Source of the DNA: a virus
IMG/VR virus record: IMGVR_UViG_3300042903_000062
Location: 1-23,136 of that record
Reading direction: 5' to 3' (one strand)
DNA: 23,136 bases
Shown here: positions 2,974 through 23,136 of the stretch, piece by piece
Position numbering within the stretch: the stretch's first letter is position 1
Layout: every line of letters begins with the position of its first letter
Program-made: the position numbers and the translations under genes
The notes under the pieces: generated by a model
The model's database searches: none
What the model was told of the DNA's origin: nothing
The model's input: only the letters and a program-made list of their open reading frames with translations

Positions 2974-5763
2974 ATGGCACGTAAAATAACAAATATTGGT
3001 TCGGGAATTTATTTCAGAGAAATAGATTTAACAACAGTTCAAGCCACTGTTGGGCAATTTGCAGGAGCTCAAATCGGATTAACTGAAAAGGGTCCTGCTT
3101 TTGAAATCATCGTTTCAGCAAATTATGACGAAAGAAGAGAGAAGCTTGGAGACCTTAACCCTCTTTATCCTTCATCATATTTTGCAAAACAATTTCTTGA
3201 ACAAGCCAATAATTTTAAAGATGTTCGTTTGTTAGGATTAGAAGGTTATAATGAAGAAAAACTCAACCCTACAGATAACGATATTGAAAATACGATATTT
3301 GCAATTTTGTTTGATGTTCCAAGTTCGACATCAGCAACAAAAACCGCAACTACCCCTTTAATAGCTGGCCCTGAATCTATCGCTTGTATATTAAAACCTC
3401 GTAAAACATCTTTTACAGGAAGGCCAACTATAGATACAGTTACTGTAGATGCAGCGCCTACACCAACAGATAATTTGTTTCAAATAACTATAACATTTAC
3501 AGACTCTTCAACTCAAACAGTTTTATGTTCTTTAAGACCAGAGCGTACAGAGTATATAGAAAAAGTTTTCGGAACACACCCTCGTGATAAGGCGAAAATT
3601 GCAGGACAAACTTCTCCATTGTGGGTTGAATATGTGTTCCCTACAACAAAAACAAGAAATAGAGCTTGGGATCCTACAAACCCAGCAAACCCTGATTTAG
3701 TATTAGAATATAGATACCCTGATGGACAACCTGGTGCAGGAGGGGTGTTATCTTTAATCCCAGGGGATATTAAGGCGACAAAATCATTTTCTTATCCAAA
3801 TTACACAATTAACGGTGTTGTTGCTGGATCTGGTACATATACTTTTACGACTACAAGTCCTCACCCGTTTACTATCGGAATGAAGGTAGAAATTTCAGGT
3901 GTAAATGGTTTCGGAGTTGTTTCTTCAGGAAATAAACCAATCAATAGTGTATGGGAAGTAGCAACAGTTGGTACAAATTCTTTTACTATTGTAATGACAC
4001 CAGCTGAATTTAGTGCTATTACTGGCTCCTACACTACTGGTGGAATTGTTAGACAATATTATTCACCAACGTGGGAATCAGAGGTAATGGATTTAGGAGG
4101 TACAGTAGGCAAGGAAATTACTTACCAAACACCTATTACTCCGTGGTTTGTATCCGACGCTGATGCTAGCGGTAATGTTGTTAGGTTATTCCGTTTTTGG
4201 AGTATATCAGATGGTGAATCTGCAAACACAGATATTAAGTTAGAAATTTTTAATCATAACCCGGACGGAAATATTGGAAAAGGCTCTTTTGATTTGCTTA
4301 TACGTAAATTCAACGATACAGATGATAAAAAACAGACGCTAGAGCTTTTTACTAATCTTACTTTAAACCCTAAATCTGACAATTATATTGCTAAAAGAAT
4401 TGGAGACGGGGAGACATATCCTATTAAATCTTCCTATATTTTTGTTGAAATGAATGAAGATATAGATCTCCCAGATAATGCATTACCGTATGGTGTAGAA
4501 GGATATCCTAATGTAAGCGGTATATCTATGCCAGATGTACAATGGACAACTGAATACAATTTTAATCAACCTATTACAAAACAAACACTAGGACTTGCAA
4601 ACAACAAGGTTAATATGTTTGCACCAATAACAAAGGATCATCTGTCATTTAAAAATGTTTCTGTTTACGATACTACAACTGTAGGAAAGGGTTTTCATTT
4701 AAACCCTAACAATAATGCAATGTTTGATCCTTCTAACCTTCTTTTTACAAAAGCAAGTCAAAGTATTTATCAAATTTCAGCAACAAACACTCTTCCAGTT
4801 ACTGGAATTGAAAAAGCTAAACGTAATCGCTTTGTTGTTTGTTTTTATGGTGGATTTGATGGTTGGAATGTTTATAAAGAAAGAGAATGGGGCGATGTTT
4901 CTTCTAAAGATTTCGAAGCATTAACAGCAGGTTTAAAAATTCTATCTGATGTTGAAAGCATAGAATCGGACTTTTCAGTATTAGTAACTCCGGACTTAAA
5001 CTTTGAAGATCATTTATCAGCTACACTTGCAACATTAGAAATGGTTGAACGTAGAGGCGATGCTTTATATTTGTTTGATTTTAAATACGATGAATTAGCA
5101 GATCCAGAACAGGCAAAAACAACGCTATCATTTACACCTGGGATGAAATCAAATTATTCCGCTGTATATTTTCCGTATGTACAAATCGAAGACCAGGTTA
5201 ATAAAACTAATATATGGATGCCGCCATCATTAATTGCTTTAGGAACAATTGCTTCTACTGCTGTAAAAGAAGATGTATGGCAACCACCTGCTGGTTCTTT
5301 AAGAACTGTTGCAGCTAATTTAGTTCGCACAAGAAGACGCATGAAAGGACCAGATAGAGAAATCCTTAAATCAGCTAATATCAATCCTATTACTTTATTC
5401 CCAGGAACAGGTTTTGAAATTACCGAAACAAGAACAACTCAAGAAACATTTTCAGCACTATCCTTTATTCATAATAGATTATTGTTAGGATATGCTAAAA
5501 AGGCTTTAAACCAAACTTTGCGCCCATTGTTACATCAATTAAATAATAATACTTTACAACAAGCATTTGTTAATGTTGTAACCCCGATTTTTGAACGTAT
5601 TAAAAAATTAAACGGATTAGAAGACTTTAAGGTAAATGTAAAAAATGTAGAGGAAGATAGAACTACCTTGTATGGGGAAATTATAATTGTTCCTTTATAT
5701 CCAGTAGAAAAAATTCAAGTTGATTTTATACTTTCTAATAACGGGGTAGATTTTCAACAATAA
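2974..5763 (+). CDS. Contractile tail sheath protein, gp18-like (very long)
   Basis: A 929-residue tail sheath subunit. The N-terminus GSGIYFREIDLT with A.GLTEKGPAFEI is the standard sheath start, which threads into neighbouring subunits. The C-terminal domain (about residues 800-929) is the conserved sheath core: a long helix with NRLLLGYAKKAL, LRPLLHQLN and the final strands GEIIIVPLYPVEKIQVDFIL, which build the inter-subunit mesh around the tube. T4 gp18 is 659 residues, so about 270 residues are extra. The extra material lies mainly between residues 100 and 560, including a beta-rich segment around 280-362 that looks like an FCCH-type module. The gene stands alone between an AT-rich leader and a strong terminator, consistent with high expression of an abundant structural protein. 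The sheath call is firm; the domain limits are approximate. Confidence 0.92.
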   Translation: MARKITNIGSGIYFREIDLTTVQATVGQFAGAQIGLTEKGPAFEIIVSANYDERREKLGDLNPLYPSSYFAKQFLEQANNFKDVRLLGLEGYNEEKLNPTDNDIENTIFAILFDVPSSTSATKTATTPLIAGPESIACILKPRKTSFTGRPTIDTVTVDAAPTPTDNLFQITITFTDSSTQTVLCSLRPERTEYIEKVFGTHPRDKAKIAGQTSPLWVEYVFPTTKTRNRAWDPTNPANPDLVLEYRYPDGQPGAGGVLSLIPGDIKATKSFSYPNYTINGVVAGSGTYTFTTTSPHPFTIGMKVEISGVNGFGVVSSGNKPINSVWEVATVGTNSFTIVMTPAEFSAITGSYTTGGIVRQYYSPTWESEVMDLGGTVGKEITYQTPITPWFVSDADASGNVVRLFRFWSISDGESANTDIKLEIFNHNPDGNIGKGSFDLLIRKFNDTDDKKQTLELFTNLTLNPKSDNYIAKRIGDGETYPIKSSYIFVEMNEDIDLPDNALPYGVEGYPNVSGISMPDVQWTTEYNFNQPITKQTLGLANNKVNMFAPITKDHLSFKNVSVYDTTTVGKGFHLNPNNNAMFDPSNLLFTKASQSIYQISATNTLPVTGIEKAKRNRFVVCFYGGFDGWNVYKEREWGDVSSKDFEALTAGLKILSDVESIESDFSVLVTPDLNFEDHLSATLATLEMVERRGDALYLFDFKYDELADPEQAKTTLSFTPGMKSNYSAVYFPYVQIEDQVNKTNIWMPPSLIALGTIASTAVKEDVWQPPAGSLRTVAANLVRTRRRMKGPDREILKSANINPITLFPGTGFEITETRTTQETFSALSFIHNRLLLGYAKKALNQTLRPLLHQLNNNTLQQAFVNVVTPIFERIKKLNGLEDFKVNVKNVEEDRTTLYGEIIIVPLYPVEKIQVDFILSNNGVDFQQ

Positions 5764-6351: not shown

Positions 6352-6747
6352 ATGGCAATAAAAGAAAAAATTGTTGAAAAACTTGTAGAAAAAATAGAAA
6401 AAGAAACAGGTAGAAAACCTATACTTAAATCTAAAGAAGAGAAAGAGGTAACTACTGCTAATAAACTTACCTTAGGCAATGTTATGCCCGAATCTTCTAT
6501 TATGTTAATGAATGAATATCTTCAAGAAATGTTTTTGGATTTAGAAGAACAAATTTCTGAATTAAAAAATATTAAAATAACCAAAAACGCACAAGCATCA
6601 ACCGAAGATTATTACAAAAAAATCGAGAAAGCTCAATTTGATTTAAAACAAATAGCACGTATTTGTCAATATGCTTCTAATACAATTAGAGCAAATAAAT
6701 TTGATAAGACATTATTAGATATGATTCTTAACAACAAACAAGTATAA
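6352..6747 (+). CDS. Small helical protein of unknown function
   Basis: A 131-residue charged, helical protein. The N-terminus (about residues 5-30) is a Lys/Glu-rich amphipathic helix containing VEKIEKETGRKPILKS. This loosely recalls the tag LLESLTNKKVTLKE near the N-terminus of the next gene, though the match is weak. Residues 60-125 form two further helices with regularly spaced hydrophobics. No known domain is seen. It starts after an A-rich leader (ataatcataATG) and is likely co-transcribed with its upstream neighbour. Confidence 0.7.
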   Translation: MAIKEKIVEKLVEKIEKETGRKPILKSKEEKEVTTANKLTLGNVMPESSIMLMNEYLQEMFLDLEEQISELKNIKITKNAQASTEDYYKKIEKAQFDLKQIARICQYASNTIRANKFDKTLLDMILNNKQV

Positions 6748-6791: not shown

Positions 6792-7274
6792 ATGAAAGTT
6801 TATACACAAAATAATAAATACCTTCGATTGTTAGAGTCTTTAACAAATAAAAAGGTGACATTAAAAGAGCGACAAGCCAAACGTTATGTTGTAGTTTGTG
6901 ATATGTATGTTTATGCCAACGATGATAAAGATGCCAAAAGAGTTGCAGATAAAATAATGTACGAAATTAATGACAAACACGATGCACACGCAGAAGTAAA
7001 AGAACTTTACGAAATGCCTTTTGGTTCTATGACTCCTAGAAAAATAAATTTAAGCGAAGCATATCAAGATGATGTTTTGATCCCGGTCAATAAACAAGAC
7101 ATAACAAATATGATCAAACAAGCTTATAAAGATTTAGGTTTAAAATATAAAACTTCTCATTTAACCTTTTTATATAAAAAAATAAACGAATTGCAGGCAA
7201 ATGAAGAAGGAAAACTTTTAACCTATGGCGATTTAAAAAAAATAATAAATTTTATAGACAAAGGTGGTAACTAA
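6792..7274 (+). CDS. Small alpha/beta protein with N-terminal LTNKKV tag
   Basis: A 160-residue protein of unknown function in three visible parts. Residues 11-26 are LRLLESLTNKKVTLKE, a short amphipathic segment whose core recurs at the C-termini of the proteins at 8002 and 22832. Residues about 31-78 (RYVVVCDMYVYANDDKDAKR...) look like a small alpha/beta domain. Residues about 95-158 are helical. The tag ends in LKE, which fits the [LI]-x-E consensus cut by T4-type prohead protease, so it could be a removable targeting peptide; this is inference. The gene sits just upstream of the tail tube gene and begins immediately after an inverted repeat. Confidence 0.7.
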   Translation: MKVYTQNNKYLRLLESLTNKKVTLKERQAKRYVVVCDMYVYANDDKDAKRVADKIMYEINDKHDAHAEVKELYEMPFGSMTPRKINLSEAYQDDVLIPVNKQDITNMIKQAYKDLGLKYKTSHLTFLYKKINELQANEEGKLLTYGDLKKIINFIDKGGN

Positions 7275-7347
7275 AAAAACAATTGATTAACTTGCATTAC
7301 AAACCCTTGGTTAATTTAAGATTTTTTTAAAACACTATAAGTTAACA

Positions 7348-7354
7348 ATATTTA
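7348..7354 (+). promoter_or_regulatory. Candidate late promoter element upstream of the tube gene
   Basis: ATATTTA lies 16 nt before the tail tube ATG, in a 96-nt gap with no gene. Together with the copies before sheath, hub-region and other genes it suggests a shared late element. Evidence is positional only. Confidence 0.35.
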
Positions 7355-7370
7355 TTTAAAAAATCGAGCA

Positions 7371-7919
7371 ATGATAAAATTAATAAATGACATAAATTTA
7401 GTAAGAATTAATAGACCTAGGGTAATAAACAGCGGAAAGATGTTTTCGTTGATGCCTAACATTTTTGACCCAATTCGTAAAGATTTATGGTCTATAGAAT
7501 TTCCTGTTCAAATGAATATTCCTGAAACTTTTCAGGTTAAAGCTGCCCGGCCAAAAACCACTAATGCAAGAAAAGAAATTCCTTATAAACATTTGACAAC
7601 ATATTATAAAGGAAAAACTAATACTGAAACTATGACAATTGCATTTAGAGATGCAATAGGTCCGGGAGTGTATGCTAAATTATTAGCTTGGCAAAGAGAA
7701 CACACAGATTTTGCTACTGGAAAGGGTGGATATGCACAAACTTATAAAAAAGAATTAGTTTTAAATATGGAAGACCCAACAGGTGCAGTTATTCAAAAGT
7801 TTATTTTACACGGTGTATTTATTGTTGATATAGATGGTGGAGAATTAGATATGACATCAGATGATATAGCAGAAGTTACTATGACAATATCATATGATAG
7901 TTATACTCAAGTGTTTTAA
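7371..7919 (+). CDS. Tail tube protein, gp19-like
   Basis: A 182-residue protein matching contractile-phage tail tube subunits, which stack as hexameric rings inside the sheath and form the DNA channel. T4 gp19 is 163 residues. Visible family features are FPVQMNIPETFQVKAARP at about 43-60, then YKHLTTYYKGKTNTETMTIAFRD at about 72-94, where tube strands meet, and an AKLLAWQREH helix at about 102-111. The final strands (VFIVDIDGGELDMTSDDIAEVTMTISYDSY) are the conserved end of the beta barrel. It sits between its own candidate promoter and a terminator, fitting an abundant structural protein. Finding it several genes away from sheath, rather than adjacent, is mildly unusual. Confidence 0.85.
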   Translation: MIKLINDINLVRINRPRVINSGKMFSLMPNIFDPIRKDLWSIEFPVQMNIPETFQVKAARPKTTNARKEIPYKHLTTYYKGKTNTETMTIAFRDAIGPGVYAKLLAWQREHTDFATGKGGYAQTYKKELVLNMEDPTGAVIQKFILHGVFIVDIDGGELDMTSDDIAEVTMTISYDSYTQVF

Positions 7920-7945
7920 AATAAAGAAAATTGTATTTTTTTAAG

Positions 7946-7977
7946 AAAGAGGTTTGCAATTTGCAAGCCTTTTTTTG
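7946..7977 (+). terminator. Intrinsic terminator after the tail tube gene
   Basis: AGGTTTGC (7950-7957) pairs with GCAAGCCT (7963-7970) with one G-T wobble and a 5-nt AT loop. It is preceded by AAAG and followed by a run of seven T. It lies 27 nt after the tube stop codon, isolating tube expression from the downstream genes. Confidence 0.85.
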
Positions 7978-7984
7978 TTATTCC

Positions 7985-7991
7985 ATATTTA
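7985..7991 (+). promoter_or_regulatory. Candidate late promoter element (ATATTTA)
   Basis: ATATTTA in the context CCATATTTA directly follows the tube terminator and is 10 nt before the ATG at 8002. If it is a T4-type box at about -10, the transcript would be nearly leaderless. Confidence 0.35.
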
Positions 7992-8001
7992 CAAAAAAAC
8001 A

Positions 8002-8325
8002 ATGTATATTTATACTATACAATTCAACAATTCCAAGTTTTTTGTAGCTGATAACACTTTATCAACATTTTTTAAATGGGTTAAAAAAAAAGATCCTTTA
8101 GCGATACAAACACATCCAAATGGAAAATTACCTACAGGAGCAAGACTTATATATTTTAAATCCAATCTTACGCCTTTAGAAATAAAAGAACTTGCCAAGA
8201 ATTTTGAATTGATTTATGATAACTTGTCGATTGATTTATATAATTTCAAAAAAATTGAAACAAAACTAGAAAAATGTTTAAAAATTTTGGAGATACTAAC
8301 AAATAAAAAGGTTGTTTTACAATAA
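8002..8325 (+). CDS. Small protein with C-terminal LTNKKV tag
   Basis: A 107-residue protein of unknown function. I start it at ATG 8002 (MYIYTIQFNN); the longer in-frame version would begin inside the terminator stem. The first 70 residues look like a compact alpha/beta fold. Residues about 83-99 form a helix, and the last 15 residues are LKILEILTNKKVVLQ. This tail matches the N-terminal segment of the protein at 6792, and the underlying DNA shares 16 identical bases (6841-6856 and 8297-8312). The same motif ends the reverse-strand protein at 22832. It follows a terminator and a candidate promoter and precedes a YkuD-like gene. Confidence 0.7.
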   Translation: MYIYTIQFNNSKFFVADNTLSTFFKWVKKKDPLAIQTHPNGKLPTGARLIYFKSNLTPLEIKELAKNFELIYDNLSIDLYNFKKIETKLEKCLKILEILTNKKVVLQ

Positions 8326-8422: not shown

Positions 8423-9010
8423 ATGTTGGTAACATTAGATACATTAAAAAAAGCAATACAAAAAAAAGGTTATAAATGGTTTGAAGACCAACCTAATATA
8501 ATTGGAGTAAGAACAACATTGCAAATCCCAGATGTTTTTAATGATGTTTTATTTTGTGTTTTTAAAGATAAAGATGGAAAAGAGGTTGTAAAATCTTGGA
8601 CAATAACTACAAACCCTGGGCTTTATTGGTTGTTACATCCGGCAAATACATTAGGGACAGCTGTGTTAAAACCAGGTCAATATATTAATTCGCACGCAAT
8701 TGGATTTCATCAGGGGAAAGCAGATCATAAAGCATTGGTACAAATTAATCCAGTAACTGTTTATAGAGATAATAATAAAAACGATATAGCAGAAAGTTCT
8801 TCAAAAACGGAAACAGGGTTATTTGGAATCAATATTCATAGAAGTAATAAAACAGGCACAACTCAACAAATAGGAAAATGGAGTGCAGGATGCTTAGTTT
8901 TTCCACAAGCACAAAGTTTAGAACAGCTTTTATGGATATGTGAACAATATAAAAAAAAGACAGGAAACAAATTTACTTTAACTCTTTTAGAAGAAAAAGA
9001 TTTAGCTTAA
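8423..9010 (+). CDS. Putative cell-wall-active protein with YkuD-like H...SAGC signature
   Basis: A 195-residue protein from a conserved phage/Bacteroidota family I recognise by its pattern: NIIGVR at about 25-30, TTNPGLYWLLHPAN at about 62-75, GTAVLKPGQY at about 78-87, GINIHR at about 135-140 and SAGCLVF at about 154-160. His139 followed 15 residues later by Ser-Ala-Gly-Cys (Cys157) resembles the HxG...SHGC catalytic motif of YkuD L,D-transpeptidases. A peptidoglycan-acting role, as endolysin or virion lytic factor, is therefore plausible. There is no signal peptide, so export would need a holin or virion delivery. The family's function is not established to my knowledge; the enzyme call is inference. 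Confidence 0.55.
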   Translation: MLVTLDTLKKAIQKKGYKWFEDQPNIIGVRTTLQIPDVFNDVLFCVFKDKDGKEVVKSWTITTNPGLYWLLHPANTLGTAVLKPGQYINSHAIGFHQGKADHKALVQINPVTVYRDNNKNDIAESSSKTETGLFGINIHRSNKTGTTQQIGKWSAGCLVFPQAQSLEQLLWICEQYKKKTGNKFTLTLLEEKDLA

Positions 9011-9026
9011 CTTTAACTAGTAGATA

Positions 9027-10175
9027 ATGATAAAAGTAGATTGGTCTGAGTGTTTGTTAAAAGAAGATATAGCTGTTGCTATGTCTGCTCATGCTCTTGA
9101 CAGAGCTATTCAAAGAGGACAAGCACCTATTCAGCAAGTAAGAAAAGAAATTGAAAATTTAATTCAAGCAGCAGAACCACAGTTAATTGAGTTAAGCAAT
9201 AAATTTAAAACCTTTGTTTTAAAAGGCAAAAATAAATTAGCAGTTGTTGGTGCATTAATTCGCAAAGGAAAAGATTATATTTTCAAAGTAATTACCTTAC
9301 ATAAAAAAGATAATTTTATTCCTAACAACCCAGATGATAAAGTAATAAGTGTTCAAGAGGATTTAATTCCTGGGGGCAAAGGAGATAATATAGATTTATC
9401 TCAGTTTTCAATCGAACAAATAATTAAAGGTTTACAAGTAGAAAAAGAACATACAAACAATGTTTATATTGCTTTAGAAATTGTCGCAGATCATTTAACT
9501 GAAAACCCTTTCTATTATGATACTTATAATTTTCCAGAATTAAATTCTAAAAATTTTTCAAAAAATGTTTTAGATAATAACAAGGGTGAAAACAAGGCCT
9601 TAAACACAGCATTAAACAATAATATAATGGATATAAACAACGAACCGCAAGAAGATTATATTTTTCTTAGTGAAACAGAAAACTCTATTATAACTCATTT
9701 AAAACAGGTTTTTAAAGAGGGTTTAGAAAAAGAAGCAAATGGAGAAGATGAGACTTTGGCAGATAAGTTAATAGAGCAAGTATTTTTAAAACAGCCTAAA
9801 GGTATTGAAATTTTATCTATTACAAAAGAAGATTATCATATGCCTTCGAAAGTAGAAGACGCAGAAGCAGATGTAGATATAGAAGGTTCAATAACCGTAA
9901 CTGATGATTATATGATATCTTATAGATTTAAGTATCAAAACGAAGAACACGAAGTTGGTATTGGAATAGTAGAAAGTAGAGAACTTATCTATAAAGGCAA
10001 AGAGGCTGATGGTTATAAACACATTGATGTTTATCAAGATTCTGAATGGGTTGATATTTACGAAGATGGAGGTAGGGTAAAAATCAAAAATTCAAACAAA
10101 GAAATATTAGATAAAATTTTTAATTTTAAAAACAAACCTTTAAAATGGACAGACATTTATGAAGGGGATATTTAA
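9027..10175 (+). CDS. Multidomain protein: DUF4258-like N-terminus plus DUF5661-like segment
   Basis: A 382-residue protein with three visible regions. Residues about 15-105 (AHALDRAIQRGQ..., then FVLKGKNKLAVVGALIRKG) resemble DUF4258-type small domains of the RelE/BECR nuclease-like fold, with His22 early and a beta sheet later. Residues about 126-165 contain GLQVEKEHTNN and EIVADHLTENPFYYD. They match the DUF5661 signature (G..VE.EHT....A.EIA.DHL.E...YY), found in phage and archaeal proteins of unknown role. Residues about 205-382 are an acidic helix followed by a beta-rich domain with many Tyr, Asp and Glu. It lies 16 nt after the YkuD-like gene. Either an enzyme or a virion component is possible; the catalytic role of the first domain is uncertain. 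Confidence 0.55.
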   Translation: MIKVDWSECLLKEDIAVAMSAHALDRAIQRGQAPIQQVRKEIENLIQAAEPQLIELSNKFKTFVLKGKNKLAVVGALIRKGKDYIFKVITLHKKDNFIPNNPDDKVISVQEDLIPGGKGDNIDLSQFSIEQIIKGLQVEKEHTNNVYIALEIVADHLTENPFYYDTYNFPELNSKNFSKNVLDNNKGENKALNTALNNNIMDINNEPQEDYIFLSETENSIITHLKQVFKEGLEKEANGEDETLADKLIEQVFLKQPKGIEILSITKEDYHMPSKVEDAEADVDIEGSITVTDDYMISYRFKYQNEEHEVGIGIVESRELIYKGKEADGYKHIDVYQDSEWVDIYEDGGRVKIKNSNKEILDKIFNFKNKPLKWTDIYEGDI

Positions 10176-10207: not shown

Positions 10208-10531
10208 ATGTTTGTTTATTTGATTAACGCAGAGGGAACTAATAAATATAAAATTGGGGTTTCAAAAAACACAAAATTAAGGCTTAAAGCTTTACAGACT
10301 GGCAGCAGTGAACGATTAACGCTTATAAAAGAGTTTAAAACCAATTTTGGTTATAAGTTAGAGGGAGCTCTTCACAGGAATTATGCATCCAAACAAGTAG
10401 CAGGTGAATGGTTTGAATTATCTTTGGATGAGGTTGCTAAATTTCTTGATATATGTCAAGTATTAGAGAACAATTTTCAATTTTTATTAGAAAAAAATAC
10501 TTATGTTCAAGATAAAAAAAATTGGTACTAA
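10208..10531 (+). CDS. GIY-YIG-superfamily protein (T5orf172-like)
   Basis: A 107-residue protein with the compact pattern of T5orf172/MUG113 GIY-YIG domains. VYLI (residues 3-6) and YKIGVS (14-19) stand for the two GIY-YIG strands, followed by Arg25 and LQTGSSERL (29-37). LEGALHRNYA (51-60) supplies the usual Glu and His, and GEWFEL (66-71) closes the domain. Members are putative nickases or DNA-binding proteins and often occur as mobile, homing-like genes in phages. Its stop overlaps the stop of the convergent reverse-strand gene. No intron or second domain is visible, so whether it is an active endonuclease is unknown. Confidence 0.75.
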   Translation: MFVYLINAEGTNKYKIGVSKNTKLRLKALQTGSSERLTLIKEFKTNFGYKLEGALHRNYASKQVAGEWFELSLDEVAKFLDICQVLENNFQFLLEKNTYVQDKKNWY

Positions 10532-16580: not shown

Positions 16581-17330
16581 ATGAACAAACAAAACAACTT
16601 GCCTGTTTCAAAAAAGAAACGCAAACATCGCAAAAAAAAAGAAGAGAACTTTAAAAAAGATTATTTTGGAGAAATTCAAGAAGAAGCTTTTAAAGAATAT
16701 ATGGAAAGTTTAGATGAAAAAAGAAAAACATATCTTTTTATAACATACATAGATCCGGCTTTAAAAGCATTGGTTAAGGGAATAATGAGAATGCCAAAAT
16801 TTCAAAAGCTTATAGGATTAGACCCAGTAACGTTAGAAGAAGATGCTTATTATCATGCACTTCTTCAATTACAATTAAAAAAATTCAAACCCGAAACAGT
16901 AGGCAAGAATGGACAACCAGCTAAAGCATATTCTTATTTTGGTACTTGTATTAAAAATTATATTTTGGGAGAAAAAAAGAAAGCAGATGCAAGAATTGCT
17001 GAATATGGTGGTTTTCTAGATATAAATGAATTAACAGATCAAATAGCAGATAAAAGAGGAGGTGCGCAATCTTTTGAAGTTTTAAGACAAGAACTGTTAA
17101 TAGGGTTGGAAAGTGTTTTAAAAAATCAAAAATTAAACACACACGATTTAACTGTTGGTAGTGTTCTTAAACTAATGGTTGTTAATTGGCATAAATTAGA
17201 ATTTCAAACAAAAAACGAATTTATGCGCCAATTAGGATATTATACAGACCTTCCACAATCTGTGATTGCTAGAAGTTTAAAAAAAATAAGAAACTTAACT
17301 TATTTATCTATAAAGAAAAGCAATGAATAA
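16581..17330 (+). CDS. Late-transcription sigma factor, T4 gp55-like
   Basis: A 249-residue protein resembling T4 gp55, the small sigma factor that directs host RNA polymerase to phage late promoters. The N-terminus (10-21) is a very basic stretch. Residues about 55-135 carry the sigma region 2-like signature: PALKALVKGIMRMPKF, then LEEDAYYHALLQLQLKKFKP, then KAYSYFGTCIKNYILGEKKK (115-134). The SYF...KN..L pattern is the hallmark of gp55-type factors. The C-terminal 60 residues are helical and could contact the sliding-clamp machinery, as in T4. T4 gp55 is 185 residues, so this one is longer. I use ATG 16581; an ATG at 16577 is in another frame. Its stop is overlapped by the next gene (ATGAATAA). 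Confidence 0.7.
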   Translation: MNKQNNLPVSKKKRKHRKKKEENFKKDYFGEIQEEAFKEYMESLDEKRKTYLFITYIDPALKALVKGIMRMPKFQKLIGLDPVTLEEDAYYHALLQLQLKKFKPETVGKNGQPAKAYSYFGTCIKNYILGEKKKADARIAEYGGFLDINELTDQIADKRGGAQSFEVLRQELLIGLESVLKNQKLNTHDLTVGSVLKLMVVNWHKLEFQTKNEFMRQLGYYTDLPQSVIARSLKKIRNLTYLSIKKSNE

Positions 17331-17691
17331 TAAAAAAATCCAAGTCAACAACGAAGGATTGGAAGAATTATTCGATGAACTTTTAAAAGGTTTAAAAGAG
17401 GATTTGGATGAAGCTAATATTAATGTAGATGTATACAAAACATTAGTTTTAAACACCCCTGCAGGCAAAGAACAATACGGTTCTTTTCTTAATGAAGCTT
17501 TAAAAATAAAAGGAGGGGCTAGGGACCGAATGTTAAAATTTTTAAATTTGTTTAAAGATAGAGTTAAGAGCAAAGAAGTTATAGATCAAATAAAAAGAAC
17601 TGAAGGAAGTGCAGGAATTCCTCCAGAAAAAATTATGGAAGCTTTGGATAAAGTAGAAAAACAAAAAGAACAAGATAGTTTAAGTGAATAA
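17323..17691 (+). CDS. Small acidic helical protein after the sigma factor
   Basis: A 122-residue acidic protein overlapping the sigma factor gene by 8 bases (ATGAATAA), so it is translationally coupled to it. Residues 10-33 form an acidic helix (EELFDELLKGLKEDLDE). Then come DVYKTLVLNTPAGKEQYGSF and a basic helix, MLKFLNLFKDRVKSKEVIDQIKR. The last third contains GIPPEKIMEALDKVEKQKEQ. No family is recognised. Because T4 late transcription needs gp55 and the small co-activator gp33, a co-activator role is worth considering, as is a small DNA-packaging protein; neither is supported by a motif. Confidence 0.7.
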   Translation: MNNKKIQVNNEGLEELFDELLKGLKEDLDEANINVDVYKTLVLNTPAGKEQYGSFLNEALKIKGGARDRMLKFLNLFKDRVKSKEVIDQIKRTEGSAGIPPEKIMEALDKVEKQKEQDSLSE

Positions 17692-17863
17692 AGGATTAGA
17701 TAACATAACAAATCAAGAACTTGAGCAATTTTTGCAAAGACTTCTTATAAAAGAAGAACAATTACGAAAAGAAATAAACATCAAGCTTAGTGCTTTAAGA
17801 GAGGTATGTGTTGAAATATTACAAATTTTAGAAGAAAAAAAGAAAAGAAGTGAAAGCCAATAG
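17684..17863 (+). CDS. Small coiled-coil protein, GTG start
   Basis: A 59-residue frame begins with GTG at 17684, immediately after an in-frame TAA, and ends at TAG 17861. It overlaps the upstream gene by 8 bases as GTGAATAA. This is the same overlap form as at the preceding junction, which supports it as a real gene. The product is helical: ITNQELEQFLQRLLIKEEQL and then a Lys/Glu-rich tail, a probable coiled coil. It fills the otherwise empty space between the upstream gene and the hub gene. The function is unknown. Confidence 0.6.
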   Translation: MNKGLDNITNQELEQFLQRLLIKEEQLRKEINIKLSALREVCVEILQILEEKKKRSESQ

Positions 17864-19242: not shown

Positions 19243-21426
19243 ATGGCACAAGTAAATTACTTATCTCGCGATTTTCAATCACTTAAAAAAGATTTAATTA
19301 ACTGGGCAAGGACATATCACCCAGAAGCTCTTGCTTATTTTAACGATAATACCCCAGATATTTTATATGCCGAGATGGTTGCTTATGTAGGGGATGTTCT
19401 CAATTTTTATATAGACAAAACCTTTAACGAGTCTTTCTTATCTACAGCGCAAGCTAGAGAATCTTTGTTTAGAATTGCCAATGATTTAGGTTTTTTTAAT
19501 TTAGGTACAACTCCCGCACAAACACAAGTAGTTTTAACAATCACAGTACCTCCATATTTAGATACCCAAACAGGTCAGTTAATACCCGACCCGGATTTGT
19601 TAATAGCTATTCGCCCTGGAATGTTGTTAAACTCAGATAGCGGCGTACCTTTTGAGGTTTTAGAAGAAATTAACTTTGCTGACCCAATTAATAGAACTAT
19701 AATAAGAAACCTTGATGGAAACGGACAATTAATAGATTACACAATTCAAAAAACAGCTGTTGCAAAAGCAGGACAAACCAAAATACAACGTTTTTATGTT
19801 TCTGATGCGTTAGCTAAGCCATTTATGACAATAACACTTCAAGATGATGATGTAACTGAAATTACAGGTGTGGTAAGTGTTCCAGGAAATCAATATATAG
19901 CACCTCCTGAAGAAGATTTTACAGACCCTGATAAAGCATATATTGAAGTTAGTTATTTGGCGAAAGAAAAAATGTTTGTAGAAATAAACCCTACACAGCC
20001 AAGCTCTTCTAATTTTACAAGTTTTATTCCAAATACTATAAAAACAGGTGCTTATGTAGATATTCCAAGACGCTTTATAGCTAGAAGAGATGTTAATAAT
20101 TTAGTAACTTTAACTTTTGGAAATAATAGTACAAGTTATAGCGCTTTTAACAGTTTAATACAAACTACTATTGACCCTACTCAAATTAATTACAACCAAG
20201 TGTTAAACAATACTACTCTAGGAGAAATACCTCCTCCAGATACAACTTTGTTTATTCGCTATAGAGTAGGAGGTGGTGATAATACTAATGTTATAGCAAA
20301 TCAAATTAATTCTATAGCTGCAAAAACCTTTTTTCCTGCACCAGCATCAACAAGACCAAATTTTCTTACTTTGTTACAACAAGTTAGAAATTCTTTAACA
20401 GTCACAAACCATCTACCTGCTGTAGGGGGGCGATCTACTCCAGGAAACGAAGAAATTAGAGTTACAGCCGGTAAAATATTTGCAGCTGGAGATAGAGGCG
20501 TTACTTATGAAGATATAGTTGCGCTAATAAGCCAAATGCCAGCAAAATTTGGTAAACCCTTTAGAATTGCTTACGAAGAAATAAAACCTAGAGTAGCTAA
20601 TATGTCGCAAGTTAGTTTAGGTGTAAATTATTATTTAGAACAATTGCTAAATCAAGATACATCTCTTGGTAGACAAAAAATAGCGCAAGAAATAAAAACC
20701 TTTTTAAACAACTTAGAAAACGGGATTTCAACAGTAATTCCACCTTCTGGACAAACATCGACTTCAACAACAGTAATGAGCGCCGAATCAGTTTCTTTAT
20801 TGGGTAGTTTACCTACACTGTGGATAGGGGAAAAAGCACGATTGTATGTTTTAAGTTTAAATGAAAACGGACAAATAGTAGGAGCAATAAAAGATCCTAC
20901 TACACAATTGTTTTTATCTCCTCAACAACTTTTAAAAGAAAATATTAAAGAATTTTTAAAAGATAAAAGAGTTATAGGAGATTGGATTGACGTTGTAGAC
21001 GGAAGGGTTATTGATATTCAAATAGAATTTACTTTACTTGTAGATAAAAAGAACAAGCAACAAGTCCTAATTGAGGCTTTAAACAAAATGAGAAATTATT
21101 TTAATGTAGATAATTGGCAAATGAATCAGCCAATTTATGTTTCTAATGTTTCCACTATTCTGCAAGAAATTAATGGCGTTATAAATGTAGTAGATTTAAA
21201 ATTTTATAATATATTTGGGCTAGGAAATAATAGTATAGACCCGATTTCTGGTAGAGAATATACACCAGGCGAAATAGGAAGATATAGAAGAATAATTACC
21301 CCTTCGGTTTCATCTGCTAATAATAAATTTGAAATGAAAGCTGTTAATAATATTATTGAACAATGGCCAGATTCAATATTTCACGTTCGTTATCCTAATA
21401 TCGATATTGTAGGTAAAGTTTTGTGA
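19243..21426 (+). CDS. Baseplate wedge protein, gp6 / gpJ-like
   Basis: A 727-residue wedge protein of the Baseplate_J family. The N-terminus has YLSRDFQSLKKDLINWARTY, the DNTPDILYAEMVAYVGDVLNFYID block (about 35-58) and ESLFRIANDLGF (about 74-85), the most conserved stretch in gp6-like proteins. Residues about 375-425 contain the V.NHLPAVGG...P...EI and RGVTYEDIVALI segments that define the J-like core. The C-terminal region includes ALNKMRNYFNVDNWQMNQPIYVSNVSTIL, typical of the wedge arm. T4 gp6 is 660 residues. It would form the inner iris ring of the baseplate with the gp25-like protein just upstream. Confidence 0.88.
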   Translation: MAQVNYLSRDFQSLKKDLINWARTYHPEALAYFNDNTPDILYAEMVAYVGDVLNFYIDKTFNESFLSTAQARESLFRIANDLGFFNLGTTPAQTQVVLTITVPPYLDTQTGQLIPDPDLLIAIRPGMLLNSDSGVPFEVLEEINFADPINRTIIRNLDGNGQLIDYTIQKTAVAKAGQTKIQRFYVSDALAKPFMTITLQDDDVTEITGVVSVPGNQYIAPPEEDFTDPDKAYIEVSYLAKEKMFVEINPTQPSSSNFTSFIPNTIKTGAYVDIPRRFIARRDVNNLVTLTFGNNSTSYSAFNSLIQTTIDPTQINYNQVLNNTTLGEIPPPDTTLFIRYRVGGGDNTNVIANQINSIAAKTFFPAPASTRPNFLTLLQQVRNSLTVTNHLPAVGGRSTPGNEEIRVTAGKIFAAGDRGVTYEDIVALISQMPAKFGKPFRIAYEEIKPRVANMSQVSLGVNYYLEQLLNQDTSLGRQKIAQEIKTFLNNLENGISTVIPPSGQTSTSTTVMSAESVSLLGSLPTLWIGEKARLYVLSLNENGQIVGAIKDPTTQLFLSPQQLLKENIKEFLKDKRVIGDWIDVVDGRVIDIQIEFTLLVDKKNKQQVLIEALNKMRNYFNVDNWQMNQPIYVSNVSTILQEINGVINVVDLKFYNIFGLGNNSIDPISGREYTPGEIGRYRRIITPSVSSANNKFEMKAVNNIIEQWPDSIFHVRYPNIDIVGKVL

Positions 21427-22818: not shown

Positions 22819-22837
22819 ATATAGTTTTATTCTATAT
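22819..22837. terminator. Weak AT-rich hairpin between convergent genes
   Basis: ATATAG (22819-22824) pairs with CTATAT (22832-22837) around a 7-nt loop. It lies between the plus-strand gene ending at 22757 and the minus-strand gene ending at 22832, flanked by T-rich DNA on both strands. It could act as a weak bidirectional terminator, but the stem is short and all AT except one pair. Confidence 0.3.
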
Positions 22838-23136
22838 AAATTTGATTTGTTTGTTTGTTAGCTTTTCTAGTGTTTTAATATAAGATGCAATGTATTTTTG
22901 TTGATATTCCGGCATCTTTGAAATATCGACTCCTTTAGATTGTAAAAATTCCCTTTGTTCTTCTGAGCTTGGGTTAAAATGATTATAATATTCGCCTTGT
23001 TCTTTAGGTCTAGGCGTAGGATCTTCTCCTTTGTAAGTTTTTCTCCAACTTACCAAATAAGTATAAGCATAAGGAATAAGATCTTTATATGCTATAATTA
23101 AATCTACTAACTCTCTGTATAATCGGGCAGGGTTGT
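22832..23136 (-). CDS. Unidentified protein with C-terminal LTNKQI tag (5' truncated by window)
   Basis: A minus-strand frame stays open to the right edge, giving at least 101 residues; the start lies outside the window, so the TTG/ATG-like codons near 23056 need not be the real start. The visible part begins NPARLYRELVDLIIAYKD, has a charged, Pro-rich middle (GEDPTPRPKEQGEYYNHFNP), and then SKMPEYQQKYIASYIK. It ends with IKTLEKLTNKQIKFI. This last segment matches the tags at 6822-6869 and 8278-8322. The helix-rich composition and tag suggest a virion-associated protein, but no family is recognised. Confidence 0.65.
   Translation of the reverse strand, partial: NPARLYRELVDLIIAYKDLIPYAYTYLVSWRKTYKGEDPTPRPKEQGEYYNHFNPSSEEQREFLQSKGVDISKMPEYQQKYIASYIKTLEKLTNKQIKFI

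Follow-up and report, generated by a model that had tools for sequence, protein, structure and literature searches.

A short terminal peptide shared by unrelated proteins is a probable capsid-targeting tag in a clade of uncultured T4-type phages

The window analyzed here, a viral record of 23,136 nucleotides (23 kb), carries genes for the sheath, tube, neck, and baseplate of a phage with a contractile tail. The tail sheath protein, which served as the anchor for locating relatives, is encoded at 2974–5763 (plus strand; phrog_23, E 1.1e-33), the tail tube protein at 7371–7919 (plus strand; phrog_4542, E 3.1e-20), and a baseplate wedge protein at 19243–21426 (plus strand; phrog_10646, E 6.5e-12). 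The window is a fragment, and no head gene or protease was identified within its 23 kb. A small T5orf172/MUG113 protein (10208–10531) adjoins a DUF5661 protein (9027–10175), and a pair in similar order was observed in the related contig L004 (11840–13445).

The original prediction was that three proteins with dissimilar bodies share a short peptide at one or the other terminus, and all three peptides were recovered. The first, LRLLESLTNKKVTLKE, forms residues 11–26 (6822–6869) of a 160-aa protein encoded at 6792–7274 (plus strand) and is part of an N-terminal tag, KYLRLLESLTNKKVTLKE (6816–6869), that ends in L-K-E. The second, LKILEILTNKKVVLQ (8278–8322; stop codon at 8323–8325), comprises the final 15 residues of a 107-aa protein encoded at 8002–8325 (plus strand) and is part of a 17-residue C-terminal tag, KCLKILEILTNKKVVLQ (8272–8322), that ends one residue short of the Glu position. 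Neither of these two proteins had a family match or a body homolog in the clade set. The third, IKTLEKLTNKQIKFI (22879 down to 22835), ends the minus-strand ORF at 22832 within the C-terminal tag SYIKTLEKLTNKQIKFI (22835–22885). The prediction that this protein ends in the tag stands, although it had gone unnoticed that the ORF is open to the contig end, such that its start is uncertain and its body may be incomplete. Also overlooked were the part of the signal that resembles a cleavage site and a fourth, degenerate N-terminal copy, KLVEKIEKETGRKPILKS (6379–6432, plus strand), at residues 10–27 of a 131-aa protein encoded at 6352–6747 (plus strand), where Ser replaces Glu. The tag is clear in the orthologs of this protein from contigs L104, L106, and L120.

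A matrix derived from copies outside the window gave the four copies scores of 29.2, 27.6 (the degenerate copy), 20.2, and 16.5 bits, as compared to 1.8 bits for the fifth-best window ORF and 15.7 bits for the best of 6,200 shuffled window ORFs. With the first matrix, the best of 4,775 shuffles scored 21.0 bits.

Relatives were identified by searching IMG/VR with the tail tube, the sheath, the tag, and the capsid protein, and 22 records were read fully or nearly so; they belong to uncultured, contractile-tailed, T4-type phages. Once duplicate sequences had been removed, the resulting census set comprised 955 non-overlapping ORFs from 23 records, the window among them. Fifteen of these 23 records encoded the tag, with 53 copies in 51 proteins, and in leave-one-record-out scoring none of the 53 fell below 15 bits (all were above 16). 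In an out-group of 964 ORFs, drawn from 66 sheath-bearing contigs of more distant phages and from portions of three reference phages, the tag was absent (top score, 10.3 bits). Nor did a profile search recover any tag from three complete records, LR756508, Rhodothermus phage RM378, and Flavobacterium phage immuto, whose tube and capsid proteins place them among the closest named records. A tblastn search of a phage collection with a 28-aa tag sequence gave no match at E 10, which indicates no near copy among the isolates there at that sensitivity, while a scan of genome contigs produced 217 pattern matches, none of which were confirmed, and a literature search for LTGKKV returned unrelated matches only. 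A DNA-level scan of the viral collection with a degenerate pattern for the whole tag found nothing, and was taken as uninformative since other searches did recover further tagged contigs. As far as the collections searched show, the tag is a feature of this clade.

With the tag removed, the bodies formed 40 blastp clusters when counted per site and about 38 when counted by protein, which upholds the prediction of unlike bodies behind a common tag. No family match was obtained for most of the bodies tested; those that could be recognized were GNAT-like, tudor-like, and leucine-rich-repeat (LRR)-like. The ORF at L100 3–1646 had a weak match to Acetyltransf_13. Matches of a GNAT-like protein from relative G011 to the PDB were weak (best E 5e-3) and nearly all to GNAT acetyltransferases, its AlphaFold2 model was middling (pLDDT 66), and its better match, in BFVD, was to a phage head-morphogenesis-domain protein (E 6e-10). 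A small tudor-like protein in G004 (L129:6679–6981) has the tag at its end, while a protein in G008 (L100:1646–3085) comprises a Phage_tudor-like domain (PF24144, E 5e-4, below the cut-off) followed by an internal tag and 337 more residues. Two neighboring paralogous tagged ORFs (L130:17106–18482), in a record without recognized head or tail genes, showed weak similarity to leucine-rich repeats (receptor L domain).

The consensus of the 53 copies is (I/V)-x-(L/I)-L-x-(E/K)-(K/L)-(L/I)-E-K-(L/Y/I)-(T/S)-(G/N)-K-K-(V/I)-x-(L/F/Y)-x, then E, or in short form LLxEK(L/I)EK(L/Y)(T/S)GKKVx(L/F)x, then E. From its sequence, the tag looks like an amphipathic helix that leads through a Gly/Asn turn into a short strand, the last of these suggested by the residue pattern. 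AlphaFold2, applied to the 131-aa window protein with its orthologs (four orthologs), predicts an isolated helix at residues 3–19 that carries the tag, a flexible, low-confidence linker at about 20–40, and a helical body at 41–127. The stretch between tag and body ranges from about 20 to over 100 residues among these orthologs. A helix, a variable linker modeled at low confidence, and a body would be the expected look of a tethered docking peptide.

Tag copies are concentrated at protein termini. Thirty-five of the 53 copies, against 6.9 expected, are N-terminal, beginning no later than residue 17, and six are exactly C-terminal (0.41 expected); neither number was ever reached in 20,000 simulations. 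Terminal copies thus total 41 of 53, as compared to about seven expected, and the remaining 12 are internal. These results bear out the claim that the tag switches between termini, and the search of related genomes found it neither at chance frequency nor scattered inside domains, the outcomes that had been named as speaking against a portable terminal docking or targeting peptide. That part of the original prediction is now well supported by 53 copies on approximately 38 unrelated bodies.

The two kinds of terminal copy differ at their last position. Glu is present at column 18 in 27 of the 35 N-terminal tags but in none of the six C-terminal tags (Fisher p = 7e-4), all of which end one residue ahead of the Glu column. 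The P3 position is hydrophobic in all 35 N-terminal copies (L in 22, F in eight, Y in four, and I in one), and the ending is therefore, read strictly, a broadened [L/I/F/Y]-x-E with Glu at P1. The eight N-terminal tags that lack this Glu (five Lys, two Ser, and one Asp), some of which have Glu one residue earlier, count against a capsid-targeting reading. Among untagged proteins, [LI]xE at residues 11–20 showed a modest general excess (1.67-fold) that was not specific to the clade, and it was not used as main evidence.

Comparisons among relatives show that the tag comes and goes as a unit. An ORF of G014 (3296–4189) is a fusion of a body A, a tag, and a GNAT-like body B, with the tag exactly at the junction. 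In G011 and G002 the two bodies are encoded by separate genes, and body B carries an N-terminal tag in G011 and a different leader in G002. Likewise, the tag of the G015 ORF at 17169–17765 is an N-terminal extension that homologs in other records lack.

Other leaders were also observed in these phages. In orthologs of body A (L005:11111–11539, L021:16871–17308, and L020:7380–8273), leaders of differing sequence end in L-x-E immediately before a conserved VRLP start, which suggests that other, shorter leaders may share the same putative cleavage site. In G001 (L113–L118, 115 kb), about 22 ORFs start with a second common leader, MNLINKILxE-SEEENLFKPRRLxxR (e.g., record positions 31912–32316, 38703–39101, and 50024–50461), the pre-Glu part of which ends in I-L-x-E and resembles a head-protease site. 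One G001 ORF (77288–77968) looks like a hybrid of this leader and the LTGKKV-type tag, and another (47001–48290) has both.

The head-gene region lies outside the window fragment, and was examined in relatives. These encode an S77 prohead protease (PF03420), a Gp23 capsid protein (PF07068), and a T4-type portal (Portal_T4, PF07230). PF03420 was identified in G001, G002, G004, G010, and G014, and blastp added G015 and G016. The ‘scaffold’ gene of the clade is named by position only and had no family match. In G010, tagged ORFs occupy the interval from portal to protease; in G004 they flank the protease; in G015 they follow the capsid gene; and in G001 three consecutive tagged ORFs separate a terminase gene from the protease. 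In T4, the core genes 67 and 68 sit between portal gene 20 and protease gene 21. The small tagged ORFs by the protease are thus where T4 keeps its prohead-core genes. In the same phages, I/V/L-x-E precedes a mature-looking start in both the capsid protein (TIVE/AWKG, VLVE/AWTG) and the protease (FLAE/VEGG, FLLE/SEGG, LLLE/IEGG). The G001 protease gene (66677–68563) has intein-like LAGLIDADG and HINT sequence within its S77 domain, and the G001 portal gene (33445–36111) contains an intein splicing domain; an ORF at 70665–71993 in this genome was considered as the portal but rejected, as it had no family match.

Packaging into the capsid had been offered as one example of what the tag might do. 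It is the likeliest fate of the tagged proteins, judged by the LxE ending of the tags, the position of tagged genes, and the T4-type head genes of relatives. The analysis shows the tag itself, conserved at the protein level, along with its distribution, its two forms, and the genes around it, whereas head entry, cleavage, a docking partner, and delivery to the host are what we infer. We consider it probable that, in this clade of T4-type phages, the peptide serves as a capsid-targeting tag that docks in the prohead core, with Glu as a release site for the S77 protease. The 17-residue helix-turn-strand would bind a component of the prohead core during assembly (probably the scaffold, or else a different core protein), and binding would load many unrelated cargo proteins into the head. 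Where a tag with Glu is N-terminal, or stands ahead of a fused second cargo, it would present a hydrophobic-x-Glu site that the prohead protease may cut, freeing the cargo. Where the tag is C-terminal, the chain ends one residue before Glu and the cargo would keep its tag. The signal may thus have two parts, with the helix-turn-strand as the dock and Glu as a release site where release is possible and useful. More tentatively, with prospects we judge as nearly even, this amounts to a loading tag with a dock at either terminus and an optional Glu that decides release by the protease: front-tagged proteins would be freed, back-tagged proteins would stay tagged, and fused cargos would be cut apart at internal tags, yielding a swappable set of up to about ten cargos per phage, including GNAT-like enzymes, for delivery to the host.

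The chief rival is that the tag attaches proteins to some part of the tail or baseplate (e.g., the tail-tube or neck assembly) and is unrelated to the head, with LxE being a mere strand end. It takes this place because sheath and tube genes have many tagged ORFs around them, in the window as well as in G003, G004, G008, G011, and G013. In the window, which holds no head gene or protease, two of these ORFs flank the tail tube gene, and both points count against a head reading. However, tail and head genes adjoin in T4 itself, such that nearness to the tube says little, and tagged ORFs also adjoin the prohead protease, the scaffold-position gene, or the capsid gene in G001, G004, G010, and G015. 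Moreover, annotated tail proteins are without the tag, and a purely structural role does not predict that N-terminal tags retain Glu whereas C-terminal ones lack it. We regard tail docking as unlikely, if deserving of attention.

The tag might instead be an assembly motif among prohead-core (gp67/gp68-like) proteins only, with most tagged ORFs encoding core subunits as opposed to delivered cargo. The gp67/gp68-like gene position of small tagged ORFs, the tandem tags in G010 (8914–9576) and G014 (8975–9355), and the all-helical AlphaFold2 model of one tagged body are consistent with such a motif. Yet GNAT-like, tudor-like, and LRR-like bodies resemble enzymes or binding modules rather than scaffold, and some tagged genes are far from head genes (in G005 and at 86–88 kb in G001), which together make a motif confined to the core quite improbable.

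It is scarcely credible that the tag is a selfish or mobile coding element that spreads as DNA without protein function, like the repeats inserted into Rickettsia genes. One peptide does occur in unrelated genes, and the 16 bases reported as identical between two window copies (6841–6856 and 8297–8312; TAACAAATAAAAAGGT) are indeed exact. But among pairs from the same genome with different bodies, identical residues shared a codon at a frequency of 0.61, as compared to 0.58 expected from codon usage; this shows no sign of DNA copying and refutes the recent-copying form of the explanation. Copies are also concentrated at termini, and the C-terminal ones all end at the same column. Finally, although the tag core is a common-looking amphipathic helix, an origin by chance or as convergent helix ends has already been refuted by the shuffle, leave-one-out, and out-group tests.

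If the capsid-targeting reading is right, one sequence search would list the head-packaged cargo of a whole uncultured clade, mostly proteins without a known family, and comparison of swappable cargo sets would make the role of internal head proteins, an old question, testable. It would also carry the capsid-targeting principle of T4 over to fused cargo and to cargo tagged at the C-terminus.

Characterized systems share parts of this pattern. In phages phiKZ and SPN3US, many inner-head proteins have propeptides that are removed after x-x-Glu by a gp21-like protease, and the diverged paralogs gp53 and gp54 have the same first 15 residues (PMC5694885). The removal of a Glu-terminated propeptide resembles what is proposed here, but those propeptides are mostly long, frequently of more than 100 residues, and no one portable motif shared across unrelated bodies has been described for them (PMC5694885). 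Phage P1 DarB has an N-terminal packaging signal of which 30 residues are sufficient (PMC9024508), and capsid-targeting N-termini therefore occur outside of T4. Compared by description and not by sequence, DarB is similar in that an N-terminal signal directs a protein into the capsid of a phage with a contractile tail; however, the signal is described for DarB, with no comparable tag on dozens of proteins.

The closest likeness is to the capsid targeting sequence (CTS) of T4. This sequence is found on IPI, IPII, IPIII, and Alt, is removed by gp21, which cuts after L/I-X-E, and in IPIII the first 10 residues suffice for head targeting (PMC9026906). By description, as opposed to sequence alignment, the clade tag shares with it a short peptide, mostly N-terminal here, on unrelated proteins, a hydrophobic-x-Glu ending that fits a prohead-protease site when broadened to [L/I/F/Y]-x-E, and a gp21-type S77 prohead protease and Gp23 encoded by the phages. 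The clade tag is not confined to N-termini: unlike the CTS, it also occurs at exact C-termini without Glu, in tandem, and between fused cargos, and it is found on many more bodies. Since the characterized signals in T4 and P1 are N-terminal (PMC9026906; PMC9024508), C-terminal targeting would be unusual, which tells against the reading. The clade tag is also longer (about 25 residues), and its turn-strand signature, (T/S)GKKV, is strong; if it is a targeting tag, it would be easier to recognize by sequence than the T4 CTS, whose length of 10 residues makes homology hard to judge. By analogy, the clade tag would work like a capsid targeting sequence rather than be a proven member of the T4-type CTS. 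In T4, separate residues govern targeting and processing: an Asp placed at the cut position prevents processing yet leaves targeting intact (PMC9026906). The pattern in the clade would fit a two-part signal of the same kind, with separable targeting and cleavage residues.
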